Below, piece after piece: positions 3,327 to 27,064 of a DNA stretch of 39,368 nucleotides. How positions within the stretch are numbered: position 1 is the first letter of the stretch; each line of letters starts with the position of its first letter. Under the pieces are notes generated by a model. That model was not told the origin of the DNA. It did not search any database and worked only from the letters and a program-made list of their open reading frames with translations. The DNA comes from a virus, in IMG/VR virus record IMGVR_UViG_3300013131_000102, positions 1-39,368 of that record. One strand, given 5' to 3'. Position numbers and translations under genes: made by a program.

Positions 3327-4384
3327 ATGGCTACAAAGAAAAAATCTACAAAGAAAAATACAACTAATACTTCTGTAAAAAGAAAATAATATATAGGTAT
3401 ATCTAGAGATCATTCAGGATCAATGTATTCAATTGCTCGTGCAGCATTAAAAGATTATAACAACCAAATACAAACAATTAAAGATTTATCAAACAAATAT
3501 GATATTGATACATATGTATCAACAGTTATTTGCGACACATATGTTAAAAATGAAACATTTTTAACTGAAGTAAGTTTAATTAAACCATTATCGTATTATG
3601 GTACTGGTGGTCAAACACCATTATTTGATTCTGTAATGGAACTTGTTCGTATTATGAAAACTGTTCCGGATTATAATGATCCTAATGTAACATTTTTAGT
3701 ACAGGTTATTACCGATGGTGCAGAAAATGCTTCTAAAACACAGGTTCTAAATTAGAACAAACTATAAGAGAATTACAATCTACAGATAAATGGACCTTTA
3801 CTTTTAGGGTACCAAGAGGGTATACTTCTAACTTAACCAGATATGGTATACCTGCTGGAAATATTATTGAATGGGATCAAACTGAAGAAAGTATGCTAAA
3901 TACTACAGTAGCAACTACATCAGCGTATGATACATATTATTCTAATGTATCTAAAGGTTTAACCTCTACAAGAGGGTTTTATTCCGATTTATCTAATGTA
4001 TCTTCTGATAAAGTAAAAAATACATTAAAATCAGTTGATACATCAGAATTTGATGTGTTCTTTGTAGATAAAGAAGATGAACAAATTTCTAAATTTATAC
4101 AAAGAAAGAAAAATGTTACCTTAAATAAGGGTTCAGCATTCTATGAATTAACTAAATACGAAAGAAAAATACAACCGTATAAGAAAATTGTAATACAAGA
4201 TTTAAAAAACGGTGGTTTTTATTCAGGTGTACATGCTAGAAATTTGCTAGGATTACCATTGAATAGTGATTTTTCATTATCACCTGGCGATCATTCTCAT
4301 TATAAGATATTTGTTCAATCAACTTCTATTAATAGAAAATTGAAAAAAGGAACTAGTGTATTATATTGGAATAAAGCAGCATAA
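3327..4384 (+). pseudogene. Broken vWA-domain protein (nonsense plus frameshift)
   Basis: Three pieces form one von Willebrand A protein of about 350 residues. The first starts at ATG 3327 (AAGGA upstream), is Lys-rich and meets an in-frame TAA at 3387. The same frame then continues with the MIDAS motif DHSGSM (about 3411-3428) and TGGQTP. At the A run 3735-3738 the frame shifts: one extra A would join ENASK to NTGSKLEQTIREL and then WTFTFRVPRG, the typical end of such vWA domains. The rest (to 4384) is a C-terminal region of about 160 residues. Two separate lesions suggest a decaying gene or sequence errors. Confidence 0.75.
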
Positions 4385-4740: not shown

Positions 4741-4913
4741 TGGATAAAAACCTTGTAACACTACTACTGATGTTAAGATCATTTCTATTATGTTCGGTAA
4801 CGATACGAAATATATCAGAAATGATGAAATATCCTAGTAGATATAAGGTAGGATTAGTAGTTAATTTCAGTTTATTGTTATGTATATCAATTGTTTATTT
4901 GATAATTTTATAA
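4737..4913 (+). CDS. Small membrane protein (58 aa, two spans)
   Basis: Coupled to the previous gene by overlap. Two hydrophobic stretches (about residues 6-20 and 41-58) flank a basic loop, suggesting a hairpin in the inner membrane. Function unknown. Confidence 0.55.
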   Translation: MMDKNLVTLLLMLRSFLLCSVTIRNISEMMKYPSRYKVGLVVNFSLLLCISIVYLIIL

Positions 4914-4935
4914 ACGAGAACTTCTGGAATAATTA

Positions 4936-4995
4936 AGGATGCATTCAGCAAACAATTTACATTCGTTGTATCAAACGAGCAAGTAAAAGCATCCT
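4936..4995 (+). ncRNA. Y-RNA-like element 1
   Basis: AGGATGC (4936-4942) pairs with GCATCCT (4989-4995). The 5' side then has the bulge ATTCAGCAAACAA, followed by a second helix TTTAC/GTAAA and an inner hairpin TCGTT/AACGA. The 3' side has almost no bulge. Closing helix, asymmetric 5' bulge with CAGCA and variable interior are shared with five neighbours. A Y-type RNA for the nearby Ro-like protein is my inference. Confidence 0.5.
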
Positions 4996-5004
4996 GATAT
5001 TTTT

Positions 5005-5067
5005 GTATGGGTTCAGCAAAAAAATAGATCATAACTTCCATTATGTCTTGATCGACAAAAACCATAC
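5005..5067 (+). ncRNA. Y-RNA-like element 2
   Basis: GTATGG (5005-5010) pairs with CCATAC (5062-5067), followed by AG as in the others. The 5' bulge GTTCAGCAAAAAAATA carries the CAGCA motif. The interior is a hairpin with GATC/GATC and CATAA/TTATG. There is no tRNA-like part, so this looks like a minimal member of the group. Confidence 0.5.
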
Positions 5068-5083
5068 AGTTAACTTTAGATAA

Positions 5084-5172
5084 AGAAACCTTACAGCAAA
5101 ATAAAAATAGCTCAATGGTAGAGCACTTGTTTTAATACAGGAAGAACGGTTCGATTCCGTCAAAAGGTTTCT
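5084..5172 (+). ncRNA. Y-RNA-like element 3 with tRNA-like module
   Basis: A nine-pair closing helix (5084-5092 with 5164-5172) is followed by the bulge ACAGCAAAATAAAAA. The interior mimics a tRNA without its own acceptor: a D-arm (GCTC/GAGC, 5110-5124), an anticodon-like hairpin (CTTGT/ACAGG, 5126-5141, loop TTTAAT) and a T-arm with TTCGATT (5150-5156). There is no CCA, and the extra 5' bulge would block a normal tRNA fold. It ends six bases before a small ORF. Confidence 0.6.
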
Positions 5173-5177
5173 GTAAT

Positions 5178-5270
5178 ATGAACAACCCTAAATGGTTGGA
5201 TAAAATTGTATTAGTGTTAACAATATTGATGTTTTTAATAATATTAATGTTAACAAAAACTTTTGGATAG
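5178..5270 (+). CDS. Tiny membrane peptide (30 aa)
   Basis: An ATG after AAAAGG (5162-5167) gives a 30-residue peptide with a basic-acidic head and one long hydrophobic span. The Shine-Dalgarno-like bases are in the 3' strand of RNA element 3, and the last codons are in the closing helix of element 4, so it may be a chance ORF. Low to moderate support. Confidence 0.35.
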   Translation: MNNPKWLDKIVLVLTILMFLIILMLTKTFG

Positions 5271-5357
5271 ATACAGCAGAATAAATAATATTTGCAGTGT
5301 ATGCAAGCCACGTAAGTTTCGATTTCTCACGGTAATAAAAAAGTAGGCAGCTATCCA
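5264..5357 (+). ncRNA. Y-RNA-like element 4 with T-arm-like hairpin
   Basis: TGGATAG (5264-5270) pairs with CTATCCA (5351-5357). The 5' bulge is ATACAGCAGAATAAATA. Inside are hairpin TTGCA/TGCAA (5292-5306) and a T-arm-like hairpin GTAAG/CTCAC with TTCGATT in its loop (about 5312-5330). It resembles elements 5 and 6 in bulge sequence and the CAG after the helix. Confidence 0.55.
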
Positions 5358-5375
5358 GTAATATACTGTTAGTTT

Positions 5376-5475
5376 TGAATACTTGCAGCAACAAACACAT
5401 AAATTGTGTGTACTTGGTATTTCCTCCATAACTAGTAAATATAGCTCATAAGGTAGAGCAACAAAAAGGTATTCA
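5376..5475 (+). ncRNA. Y-RNA-like element 5 with D-arm-like hairpin
   Basis: TGAATAC (5376-5382) pairs with GTATTCA (5469-5475). The bulge TTGCAGCAACAAA carries CAGCA. A hairpin CACA/TGTG and a degenerate T-arm-like part come first, then a D-arm-like hairpin GCTC/GAGC (5444-5459). T-like before D-like is the reverse of a normal tRNA and agrees with element 6. Confidence 0.55.
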
Positions 5476-5506
5476 GTTATGACATTTTTGTATATAGAGA
5501 CAAAAT

Positions 5507-5728
5507 ATGATTAATATTTCATCAAACGAATTTTGGGGTCTTAGATCTGGTGCTTACAACGAAAATTTTGGTAAAAGCACTGAAAGAACATATTTTGAAT
5601 ATTATTTTCAACAAATGCAATGGACTAAGGCAAAATCTGGTAATAATAAAACTAAAACAAAAGGAAAAGATTATAAAAATCCTAAATTAGATAGAAGAAA
5701 TAAATCGTTTTCGTTATTTGGAAAATAA
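5507..5728 (+). CDS. Hypothetical basic protein (73 aa)
   Basis: ATG 5507 has GAGAC upstream and lies between RNA elements 5 and 6. The first half is rich in aromatic residues (about 5-45); the second half is very rich in Lys, Arg and Asn, which suggests nucleic-acid contact. A role in binding the flanking RNAs would be attractive but is only a guess. No domain recognised. Confidence 0.6.
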   Translation: MINISSNEFWGLRSGAYNENFGKSTERTYFEYYFQQMQWTKAKSGNNKTKTKGKDYKNPKLDRRNKSFSLFGK

Positions 5729-5741
5729 TTTACATTTTTTT

Positions 5742-5847
5742 TGAATAGATACAGCAAAATATATACTTGGTTCGATTCCAAGGCTCCCCGCCATATGGGG
5801 AGTTGGGCAGGTTGCCTGCTAGAGAAATCTAGTTTCCCCACTATTCA
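5742..5847 (+). ncRNA. Y-RNA-like element 6 with permuted tRNA module
   Basis: TGAATAG (5742-5748) pairs with CTATTCA (5841-5847); the bulge is ATACAGCAAAAT. The interior is a tRNA in circularly permuted order: T-arm CTTGG-TTCGATT-CCAAG (5766-5782), acceptor-like hairpin CTCCCC/GGGGAG (5784-5802) whose loop GCCATAT holds a CCA, then a D-arm-like hairpin (5805-5817) and an anticodon-like hairpin CTAG/CTAG (5819-5832). No linear tRNA can be formed. It ends 19 bases before the RlmN-like gene. Confidence 0.65.
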
Positions 5848-5866
5848 GTTATTATAAAGGATTATA

Positions 5867-6808
5867 ATGTTATACAATTCTTGGACATCCGTAAAAACGG
5901 TTGAAGATCAAAAAGAACATGTAACCAAATTTATCTTTAATAAAGATAATGCGGTTGCAGAAGCAGTTTTATATAGATACCCGACATATGCAGAACGAAC
6001 AGTAATTTGTTGTTCTACACAATCAGGATGTCCTGTTGGATGTAGATTTTGTGGTGCTGGTGATTATTTTGTAAGATCATTAACACCAGAAGAAATTGTT
6101 GATCAAGTAGAACATTGCTTAAAAAATACTGGTGTTTCACCATCAGAAATTAATAGACTTCAAATTATGTTTATGTCAATGGGTGAACCATTGCTTAATT
6201 TAAAAAACTTGATTGTAGCTATTGAGGATTTAGATATCACATATCCTCATGCAGCATTATTAATTTCTACATCAGCACCTAAAATAGATTATAATCTTGT
6301 ATATGATATATCTAGAAGAATTTCTAAAATAGGGTTACAATTTTCGATTCATGAATCAACTGATGATTCTAGAGATAAATTAATACCATTTAAGAATAAA
6401 TTAAACTTGCAACAAATTGCAGATTGTGGTACCAATTGGTTTTATGCAACAGGCAGAAAACCTTATTTCAATTATTGTACACATGATAATAATGTGTCCG
6501 ATGAAGATGTGAATAGATTATATAAACTGTTTGACCCAGGTAAATGGTGTGCAACAGTATCTGTAATATGTGAACGTTCAGAAGGTATTGAAGCTACAAA
6601 TCAACATCAAAGAGATTTAGCAGTTGATTTTGGTAACAAACTTTTATGTAAAGGTTATAATGTAAGAGTATTCGATCCGGCGGGGCAGGATACGATTGGT
6701 GGTGGTTGTGGACAATTGTGGTTTGTCCAACAATGGATGCAAGAAAATCCAGATAAAGTAAAAAGAACAATTGGATACGGTAAAGAAAAAGTCCATACAC
6801 CGATTTAG
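5867..6808 (+). CDS. RlmN/Cfr-family radical SAM RNA methylase, short form
   Basis: The 313-residue enzyme has the radical SAM cluster CPVGCRFC (Cys55, 59, 62), SMGEPLLN (about 104-111), an STSAPK motif and FSIHES. Cys48 matches the RlmN cysteine seven residues before the cluster, and Cys281 in GGGCGQL matches the catalytic methyl-Cys, so both mechanistic cysteines are present. RlmN methylates C2 of adenosine in 23S rRNA and tRNA. The N-terminal domain of about 100 residues found in bacterial RlmN is missing, so the RNA target may differ; the neighbouring tRNA-like RNAs are candidates. RBS AAAGGA. Confidence 0.85.
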   Translation: MLYNSWTSVKTVEDQKEHVTKFIFNKDNAVAEAVLYRYPTYAERTVICCSTQSGCPVGCRFCGAGDYFVRSLTPEEIVDQVEHCLKNTGVSPSEINRLQIMFMSMGEPLLNLKNLIVAIEDLDITYPHAALLISTSAPKIDYNLVYDISRRISKIGLQFSIHESTDDSRDKLIPFKNKLNLQQIADCGTNWFYATGRKPYFNYCTHDNNVSDEDVNRLYKLFDPGKWCATVSVICERSEGIEATNQHQRDLAVDFGNKLLCKGYNVRVFDPAGQDTIGGGCGQLWFVQQWMQENPDKVKRTIGYGKEKVHTPI

Positions 6809-18625: not shown

Positions 18626-18780
18626 CTCAATCTTGGTGTTAAGTTAAAAAAACAATCAACTGTAGGTTCAAATCCTACCCCTCCGACCAATGTATCAATG
18701 TAACGGAGGGTGGCGGAACGGTAGACGCGGATATGACAAGTATCAGGTTGTATCAATTTTAGCTTATTCGACAAGTTGAG
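18626..18780 (+). ncRNA. RNA with permuted tRNA-Leu-like module (A)
   Basis: A T-arm GTAGG-TTCAAAT-CCTAC (18662-18678) and CCCTCCG-ACCA (18679-18689) come before their partner CGGAGGG (18704-18710) and a Leu-type D-arm (TGGCGGAACGGTAGACGC). The acceptor helix is thus a hairpin with CCA in its 14-base loop. The ends pair: CTCAA-T-CTTG (18626-18635) with CAAGTTGAG (18772-18780), nine pairs and a bulged T. The same layout as RNA element 6. The first strand can also form CCAAG/CTTGG, an anticodon-arm-like hairpin with CAA in its loop. Confidence 0.55.
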
Positions 18781-18790
18781 TATTACTGTG

Positions 18791-18933
18791 CTGGATCTAT
18801 CAAGGTGTAAAAAACTGAAACAAAAAGACAATGGTTCGAATCCATTCTCGCGCGCCAATCATGTATGCGCGAGTAGCTTAGTGGAAAAGCGTTTGTATCA
18901 ATATGATTTTTTACATTAAACGCCGAGATCCGG
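18791..18933 (+). ncRNA. RNA with permuted tRNA-like module (B)
   Basis: T-arm AATGG-TTCGAAT-CCATT (18830-18846) and CTCGCGC-GCCA (18847-18857) precede GCGCGAG (18867-18873) and a D-arm GCTT/AAGC (18876-18890), so acceptor halves are in reverse order with a nine-base loop. A helix CGTTT/AAACG (18890-18894 with 18918-18922) takes the anticodon-arm place. The outer ends pair as CTGGATCT/AGATCCGG (18791-18798 with 18926-18933), eight pairs. A terminator follows 17 bases later. Confidence 0.55.
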
Positions 18934-26011: not shown

Positions 26012-26382
26012 CTAAAATTTATATAGCTATCTCCAAAAAAAGGGGACGTGGTATTTTTGCTGCTGTAGATATTAATAAAGGAGAAATCATAGAAGCTAAT
26101 TACACAATATATATTAACAAGAATGACTCCGATATTATTAAGAAAACAAATCTTTGGAACTACTATTTTGAATTTCCTGATGGAACTTCCAGAATTGTAT
26201 TAGGTTGGGGCACTATTATAAATCATTCTTTGAACCCTAATGTTGAAAAGATTTGGGATAGTGATCCACTTTATGGTGATATTGTTTATTTTGTTGCCTT
26301 ACGAGATATTAAGCAACATGAAGAATTATTTCATGATTACATGTTTGATGCGGGAACAGAACCAGATTGGGCGACAGAATAA
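26008..26382 (+). CDS. SET-domain protein (lysine methyltransferase-like)
   Basis: The 124-residue protein carries the SET pattern: RGRGIFAAVDINKGEIIE (about 12-29) for SAM binding, INHSLNPNVE (about 71-80) with the NHS motif, and VALRDIKQHEELFHDY (about 95-110) with the catalytic Tyr region. Such stand-alone small SET proteins transfer methyl groups to lysine. Targets in phages are unknown. It sits between the polymerase and UvsX genes, so a replication or host protein could be the substrate. Overlaps the zinc-ribbon gene by ATGA. Confidence 0.82.
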   Translation: MTKIYIAISKKRGRGIFAAVDINKGEIIEANYTIYINKNDSDIIKKTNLWNYYFEFPDGTSRIVLGWGTIINHSLNPNVEKIWDSDPLYGDIVYFVALRDIKQHEELFHDYMFDAGTEPDWATE

Positions 26383-26717
26383 GTGTAACATATATAAATT
26401 GTTATGATGAAAACGGCAAGTATTTAGATAGAACTAAAAGAATAGAAGAATATATAGATATAGGATACATTATTGAAAGAAGTTTGCCAGAAGGGTATAT
26501 TAATTGGGAAATAACCAAGATTATGTATGTGATGGATCATGGCAAATATTGGATTATGGATGTAGAAGTAAAACAACATCCATATATAAAAACTCTTTGT
26601 GAACATGAATGGTTCAATTGGCAAAATATACCATATTTTTATAGAAAATGTTATAAGTGTCAAGAATTTCAAGAGTATAATTATACAACTTGTAAATACG
26701 AAGAAAGTTCAATATAA
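26367..26717 (+). CDS. Hypothetical protein with C-terminal zinc-like motif (116 aa)
   Basis: There is no ATG near the 5' end; TTG 26367, overlapping the SET gene by 16 bases, is the first candidate and has no clear RBS, so the start is uncertain. The C-terminus has CEHEW and then CYKCQEF, which could bind metal. The stop overlaps the next ATG. Confidence 0.5.
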   Translation: MGDRISVTYINCYDENGKYLDRTKRIEEYIDIGYIIERSLPEGYINWEITKIMYVMDHGKYWIMDVEVKQHPYIKTLCEHEWFNWQNIPYFYRKCYKCQEFQEYNYTTCKYEESSI

Positions 26718-27064
26718 TGACAACATGGGATCAAGGTGGAGGATGCCCTTGTGGTGTTTTTAAAGTATGTGATTGTGCAAACAGACATAAATATTTAGAC
26801 GACTTGGCGTTTAATGGATTAGCAGGTAAGAATTGGAGTAGTACAAAGATGAAAACAGATTTTGATTTTGGGTTTTCTACACACAAAGAAATAGAACTTA
26901 CAATAGAAGATAAAACAAAACTATATGGTCTAAGAGATATGATTTTGCCATTATTGAATAATTTGATGGCAAATCCTGATAACGAAATTATTAAGTGGCC
27001 AAACAGAAAACCAAAAATAGAAGAATTTATTAAGAAAATGAATACTTATATTGAAGGAAAATAA
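26717..27064 (+). CDS. Conserved phage protein (115 aa) with Cys cluster
   Basis: Starts MTTWDQGGGCPCGVFKVCDC, with four Cys in a C-x-C then C-x-C arrangement that might hold zinc. The rest is helical (LRDMILPLLNNLMANP). I have a weak memory of similar T4-like phage proteins. Function unknown. Confidence 0.6.
   Translation: MTTWDQGGGCPCGVFKVCDCANRHKYLDDLAFNGLAGKNWSSTKMKTDFDFGFSTHKEIELTIEDKTKLYGLRDMILPLLNNLMANPDNEIIKWPNRKPKIEEFIKKMNTYIEGK

Follow-up and report, generated by a model that had tools for sequence, protein, structure and literature searches.

A probable phage Y RNA with a circularly permuted tRNA-like head upstream of a DUF2828 Ro60-like protein gene

Y RNAs with a tRNA-like domain reportedly lie near Ro60 genes in more than 250 bacteria and phages, as a 2014 paper by Chen in the journal RNA is said to have described. 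The RNA considered here occupies positions 5742-5847 of a 39,368-nt stretch of viral DNA (positions 1-39,368 of the IMG/VR virus record IMGVR_UViG_3300013131_000102, called the window below), about 1 kb upstream of a gene for a DUF2828 protein and separated from it by a radical SAM gene. It is quite probably a phage Y RNA, in which an end-to-end helix, three bases, and a CAGCAA motif would form a docking end read by the Ro60-like ring of the downstream DUF2828 protein, and in which the rest of the molecule would form a tRNA-like head.

The closest described system is YrlA (Rfam RF02553), which, in the part of one account that deals with it, serves as a tether between Rsr and PNPase and undergoes modification by DusA and TruB (PMC8394870) and which, in an excerpt of another, may compete for an anticodon nuclease (PMC7790460). 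YrlA shares with the RNA at 5742-5847 a T-arm, an acceptor hairpin with a closed loop, a D-arm, an end-to-end helix, and a nearby gene of the Ro60 fold. The YrlA consensus is without the CAGCAA docking end that 5742-5847 possesses, and, unlike YrlA, the latter retains a hairpin at the position of the anticodon arm and a G-CCA in the acceptor loop. The partner gene also differs, being DUF2828 here and Pfam TROVE for YrlA, and six cassettes with different heads are present in the window.

Putative Y RNAs of mycobacteriophages and of Listeria phage CKA15 are also comparable, in that noncoding RNAs adjoin a Ro-like gene, as they do here. For CKA15, abundant noncoding RNAs upstream of an Rsr-like gene were proposed as Y RNAs in the relevant passages of the report, which describe neither a common end motif nor paired permutations, unlike the cassettes presented here (PMC12282133). 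The three cassettes that we found ahead of the DUF2828 gene in Listeria phage A511 fit that report. The same passages place the most abundant noncoding region at 26,236-26,727 (PMC12282133). Separately, positions 26196-26747 of the A511 record (L012:3507-4058; labels of this form denote our sources) hold a ROOL-like RNA (87.5 bits, cut-off 99.1), and by comparison of record positions between these two related phages, the CKA15 region may be ROOL rather than a Y RNA. Permuted transfer-messenger RNA (tmRNA; RF04321) shares the T-arm, a CCA in the acceptor loop, and the 5' acceptor strand that follows; it differs in that RF04321 gave no match at 5742-5847, where no tag part was seen. A permuted tmRNA was seen upstream of the cassettes of Synechococcus phage BUCT-ZZ01 (L001:780-1076, 111.9 bits).

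The RNA at 5742-5847 and its permuted head

A cassette, as the term is used here, has a 7-bp end-to-end helix whose 5' strand is followed by three bases, CAGCA(A), and a head that varies, and whose 3' strand is followed by G. The strict scan for such cassettes recovered exactly the outer helix that a preliminary description of this DNA had proposed (5742-5748 with 5841-5847), and the likeness to Y RNAs claimed there also holds, as the RNA is one of six cassettes with a helix-NNN-CAGCA(A) end beside a gene for a predicted Ro60-fold protein (Table 1). Inside the helix, the T-arm at 5766-5782 and, directly after it, an acceptor helix closed by the seven-base, CCA-containing loop GCCATAT are present as had been described, in an order that is reversed relative to a tRNA gene and is the same as that of Rfam YrlA. 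The two remaining hairpins were borne out in part: the proposed D-arm is present as a hairpin at 5805-5817 (GGGC-AGGTT-GCCT), but it is weak, and the minimum free energy (MFE) structure favors a 3-nt loop, while the hairpin at 5818-5833 that had been called anticodon-like carries a GAAA tetraloop and no anticodon loop. Neither ARAGORN nor the Rfam tRNA model (RF00005) matched 5742-5847. The MFE structure gives the acceptor an eighth pair, G-U, and has an energy of -35.5 kcal/mol (z -2.9), with 3 of 200 shuffled sequences folding equally well.

The head is not confined to this locus. Strict permuted modules, which we defined as a 5-bp T-arm with a TTCRA loop that runs straight into a 7/7 acceptor hairpin, plus a D-arm containing GG, were found outside ordinary tRNAs 34 times on the gene strand and never on the other in 136 sources, three of the 34 being the same sequence in L037-L039 and one (L030:7148) resembling chance; a first detector had been dropped as too loose, with 242 and 115 matches outside cassettes on the two strands. 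CAGCA stands within 80 nt upstream of 30 of these modules. When cassettes with a strict T-arm were considered, the arm continued into a 7/7 hairpin in 26 of 39, compared with 0.49 expected from shuffling and with 10 of 566 ordinary tRNA genes. The acceptor letters differ almost throughout the modules, and pairing is therefore preserved while sequence changes, and 11 of the 34 have N-CCA directly behind the 3' strand of the acceptor, which points to genuine tRNA ancestry. Several heads matched Rfam YrlA below its cut-off of 69 bits (L013, 39.8; L009, 35.9; L101, 41.6; L138, 41.9; L139, 40.3). The head at 5742-5847 appears to have been opened at the variable region, and the YrlA-like heads at the anticodon arm. 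By analogy with YrlA, recognition of 5742-5847 by TruB/Dus-type enzymes is plausible.

The DUF2828 protein and its cassettes

The phrog_850 profile matched by the DUF2828 protein of the window is labeled "RNA-binding protein," and mycobacteriophage and Ochrobactrum records label DUF2828 homologs Ro-like, DirkDirk gp51 being a "Ro-like RNA binding protein." An AlphaFold2 model built on 65 aligned proteins reached a predicted local distance difference test (pLDDT) score of 90.9, and one made without the alignment was unusable (pLDDT 37). The top two PDB matches of the model in Foldseek were a TROVE structure and Ro60 (9kop, 5.3e-9; 9nf8, 6e-7). In VIA-align, the top ten were all Ro60/TROVE (Z 19.2-11.4), the first other vWA protein having a Z of 9.9, and the best match was 1yvp (Z 19.2, 406 residues, root-mean-square deviation 4.1, 12% identity). 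Absences from the Foldseek and VIA listings were not taken as evidence. A PDB search with the sequence itself found Ro60/TROVE weakly (E 0.39-0.43), ranked below a chance match to ribosomal S21 (0.02). That Ro60/TROVE structures head the fold rankings, together with the lack of a match between this protein and Pfam TROVE (PF05731), argues for a predicted Ro60-fold protein (helical-repeat ring plus vWA) outside the TROVE family model. D275-S277-S279, T354, and D386 are invariant across the 65 aligned proteins, as a vWA-type metal site requires.

A tblastn search placed DUF2828 proteins in 681 of 50,697 phage records, every match being below 60% identity; in viral contigs, an alignment-based search recovered relatives and a single-protein search gave none. 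DUF2828 proteins presumably occur in plants as well, since the Aeh1 record carries the remark "similar to Arabidopsis T31B5.30."

Cassettes accompany these genes and share their strand. Our main set of 95 sources consisted of the window together with 14 loci from phages and 80 from IMG/VR, 945 kb in all, each placed in the orientation of its DUF2828 gene. It gave 233 strict cassettes on the gene strand versus 2 on the opposite strand, counts that take in the near-identical contigs L037-L039 and probable chance matches in L002 and L003. Five shuffles averaged 1.8, nine scrambled motifs yielded 0 to 3 cassettes, and at least one strict cassette was present in 87 of the 95 sources. A second set of 42 bacterial and archaeal genome contigs gave 27 cassettes on the gene strand (4 of them from a duplicate contig) versus 1, in 15 of the contigs. 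A relaxed rule, which required only 7 Watson-Crick pairs, three bases, and CAGCA, found 308 matches in 136 sources; features that lie outside this rule were conserved among them, namely a G-C second pair (253/308), an A after CAGCA (270/308), and the 3' G (283/308), and helix positions 3-7 showed all four pair types.

Relative to the DUF2828 gene, 206 of the 233 strict cassettes lie upstream (median distance to the start, 287 nt), 22 downstream, and 5 inside it. In 53 of the 83 loci with a cassette upstream, no more than 40 nt separate the end of the nearest one from the DUF2828 start, and a cassette so placed is usually followed directly by a purine-rich, ribosome-site-like stretch. The frequent position of a cassette just ahead of the start codon suggests that the DUF2828 protein also controls its own mRNA by feedback.

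Within the window, six cassettes of 60-106 bases each stand in tandem on the + strand (4936-5847), 5742-5847 being the last. The sequence of the outer helix differs in each, and the second pair is G-C in all six. In cassette 3, the head has a D-arm, an anticodon-like arm, and a T-arm in normal order (Rfam tRNA, 30.3 bits for 5108-5160). Elsewhere, many cassettes of 150-200 nt (L084:6572-6755, L044:4758-4921, and similar) bear other structured, non-tRNA-like heads. The species 1 and 2 RNAs of T4 were considered and rejected; they are of another design, and 50 kb of T4 contained no strict cassette.

The opposite permutation and dictyostelid Class I RNAs

Another group of RNAs has an ordinary acceptor, D-arm, and T-arm, and in these RNAs the docking helix forms a hairpin that either adjoins the anticodon arm or replaces it. 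The 3' strand of the helix comes first, then a loop that starts with the conserved G, and then the 5' strand, which three or four bases separate from CNGCA. Such docking hairpins numbered 43 in 142 sources, with 23 inside a full tRNA frame with a 7/7 acceptor; six scrambled motifs together gave 79 hairpins, 6 of them in a tRNA frame. The 23 RNAs have a four-base loop in 20 cases and an encoded N-CCA in 9. One RNA of this permutation is the 122-nt "tRNA-Val" of Aeh1 (L007:9193-9314), and a docking hairpin is found in further long RNAs that are annotated or scored as tRNAs (L008:1979-2098, L137 of KVP40, and L139:6567-6691). In six genome contigs (L105, L110, L111, L118, L121, and L136), an RNA of this kind is found ahead of the DUF2828 gene at a distance of about 310 bases or less, and in L112 and L122 it lies farther away.

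Judged from these sequences, both groups would be one circle with two cuts, which if opened at the docking helix gives the RNA at 5742-5847 and if opened at the acceptor gives the opposite permutation. The existence of two circular permutations of a tRNA-plus-helix RNA would, if true, mean that the folded shape is under selection and the position of the ends is not. A role of the opposite permutation as an anticodon-nuclease decoy was considered and set aside as too weak: a loose test found anticodon-like 7-nt loops on a 2-3-bp stem in 8 of the 23, the best being CTGTTAA in three and CTTTTAA in two.

The cassette ends also recall the Class I RNAs, which, in the sections of a published account that concern them, have a stem whose 5' G is fully conserved, an 11-nt motif that includes T3, C6, C9, A10, and A11, and a variable interior, are called unique to dictyostelids, and have the RRM protein Rnp1A as the only direct binder named (PMC7919456). 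Class I RNAs and cassettes are alike in their short terminal stem starting with G, a CAGCAA-type motif beside the 5' strand, and a variable interior; the Rfam consensus (RF01414; CUUACAGCAA...CUG) has one more base between the stem and CAGCAA than the phage cassettes. RF01414 matched two window cassettes (22.4 and 19.5 bits) and phage cassettes with up to 33.2 bits, all below its cut-off of 41.5. All ten matches that these searches listed at an E of 10 or less fall on strict cassettes. In 14 whole phage records (2.7 Mb), 18 of the 19 matches at an E of 0.1 or less coincide with outer-helix cassettes that have CAGCA, the remaining one being an RNA of the opposite permutation.

Two results speak against the Class I link, as RF01414 does not match 5742-5847 itself, and it matches at an E of 1 or less in 7 of 14 control genomes, so that weak single matches are meaningless. 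The Class I and cassette ends might instead have arisen by convergence on a similar stem-and-motif end. We would put forward only as a speculation, and a rather doubtful one, that DUF2828 proteins form a second superfamily of the Ro60 kind and use a Y-RNA code of their own, made up of the helix, the three bases, and CAGCAA, with tRNA-like Y RNAs in both circular permutations and the Class I RNAs as a eukaryotic branch. What would most likely surprise a specialist is the opposite permutation and the resemblance to Class I RNAs; a limited literature search found no published description of either. If true, the Class I link would supply a candidate partner for RNAs that are abundant in dictyostelids and whose mechanism is unknown, and it would give plant DUF2828 proteins a role.

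Competing explanations and neighboring features

Several observations weigh against reading 5742-5847 as a Y RNA of the DUF2828 ring. Rfam YrlA gave no match at an E of 10 or less in 4900-5900, and so none at 5742-5847, presumably because the D-arm is poor and the extra hairpin is kept; the weakness of that D-arm and the missing TROVE match of the protein count here too. Eight of the 95 sources have no strict cassette, and in seven named phages convincing cassettes occur only in distant tRNA clusters, not beside the DUF2828 gene, in stretches that were picked from weak model matches and not blind. An exonuclease-like partner encoded by gene 8311-8730, which overlaps the DUF2828 stop, was dropped, with homologs in only 2 other sources. 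Moreover, the cassette at 5742-5847, which stops 19 nt short of the radical SAM ATG, could act purely in cis. The last point, like the 53 loci with a cassette next to the DUF2828 start and the ribosome-site-like stretch that usually follows, would suit an alternative in which the DUF2828 protein binds cassettes only as mRNA leaders, to control how the mRNA is translated or how stable it is, and free Y RNAs are never produced. Such leaders need no tRNA-like heads, however, and many cassettes lie far from the gene start and among tRNA genes, and we consider this unlikely.

Other alternatives start from the head. A canonical T-arm, and an N-CCA that immediately follows the 3' strand of the acceptor both in this RNA and in 11 of the 34 modules, would be expected of a permuted tRNA gene that yields a functional linear tRNA after cutting and ligation, yet the anticodon loop is replaced by GAAA, 23 modules are without N-CCA, and 30 stand behind a CAGCA end, which leaves very little room for it. 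Slightly more room, though still little, is left for a two-piece RNA, whose chargeable N-CCA end would come from opening of the GCCATAT loop by RNase P and 3' processing, as in permuted tmRNA; many relatives have tight, CCA-less loops (TTCAT, ACTT, CTA), whereas the succession of G-CCA, TAT, and the 5' acceptor strand, a layout common to the same 11 modules, is what it would require. Strand biases of 233:2 and 34:0, and a motif and helix conserved across unrelated phages and bacteria, make it scarcely credible that the element arose by chance or is what duplication of tRNA genes left behind in a phage region rich in tRNAs, even if it sits in a tRNA cluster and its D-arm is degenerate.

For the Y RNA of a DUF2828 ring, we infer binding of the docking end from adjacency, fold, and conservation. 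In the mechanism that we propose, the ring would dock on the end-to-end helix, the three bases, and CAGCAA, and the head would fold as a tRNA elbow. With its opening at the variable region and its acceptor closed, such a head would engage tRNA-handling proteins and be unable to decode. Several cassettes per phage would put different heads on one ring, which might in this way be tethered to, or screened by, different partners. The likeliest function of the tRNA-like heads, which we suggest tentatively, would be to recruit or divert tRNA enzymes and tRNA-cutting nucleases. A sequence code that locates Y RNAs beside DUF2828 Ro60-like genes and a single ring protein served by many exchangeable heads would be the main consequences.

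Table 1. Predicted features of the RNA at 5742-5847, its sister cassettes, and the two genes downstream
Feature	Position	Strand	Basis
Outer (Ro-type) helix, 5' strand TGAATAG	5742-5748	+	Strict cassette scan
ATA linker and CAGCAA motif	5749-5757	+	A after CAGCA in 270/308 relaxed matches
T-arm CTTGG-TTCGATT-CCAAG	5766-5782	+	Fold and strict module scan
Acceptor 3' strand GCTCCCC	5783-5789	+	7/7 pairs with 5797-5803
Closing loop GCCATAT; G-CCA at position of tRNA N73-CCA	5790-5796	+	N-CCA here in 11/34 permuted modules
Acceptor 5' strand GGGGAGT	5797-5803	+	Strict module scan
D-arm-like hairpin, weak	5805-5817	+	MFE and strict module scan
GAAA-loop hairpin at anticodon-arm position	5818-5833	+	MFE
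Outer helix 3' strand CTATTCA and conserved G	5841-5848	+	Strict cassette scan, relaxed matches
Sister cassette 1 (small hairpin head)	4936-4995	+	Strict scan; Rfam Dicty Class I 22.4 bits, cut-off 41.5
Sister cassette 2 (small hairpin head)	5004-5068	+	Strict scan
Sister cassette 3, Y helix replacing acceptor	5084-5172	+	Strict scan; Dicty Class I 19.5 bits
Sister cassette 4	5264-5357	+	Strict scan
Sister cassette 5, with D-arm-like hairpin	5376-5475	+	Strict scan, fold
Radical SAM gene; ATG 19 nt past cassette 6	5867-6808	+	Pfam 9.7e-07
DUF2828/DUF7788 protein, 483 aa, predicted Ro60 fold	6860-8311	+	Pfam 2.5e-18 and 1.2e-42; phrog_850 5.7e-136

The radical SAM gene of the window has a homolog in no other source. 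Farther upstream, two adjoining reading frames at 3391-4384 resemble, by eye, one vWA-type gene split by a stop (DHSGSM just before 3423), and the segment at 1757-1831, which ends in CGAGGCACCA, resembles a further tRNA unlisted by ARAGORN and Rfam. A second permuted tRNA-like RNA, without a CAGCA end, was seen at 18805-18931, with a possible outer helix GGATCT/AGATCC; its 18805-18919 portion matched Rfam YrlA with 33.8 bits (E 1.2e-5 in a 501-base search) and has GCCA in the acceptor loop. A third permuted module, at 18640-18760 and also without CAGCA, has a Leu-like D-arm and the acceptor CCCTCCG-ACCA...CGGAGGG, and TGTATCAAT is present three times around it.
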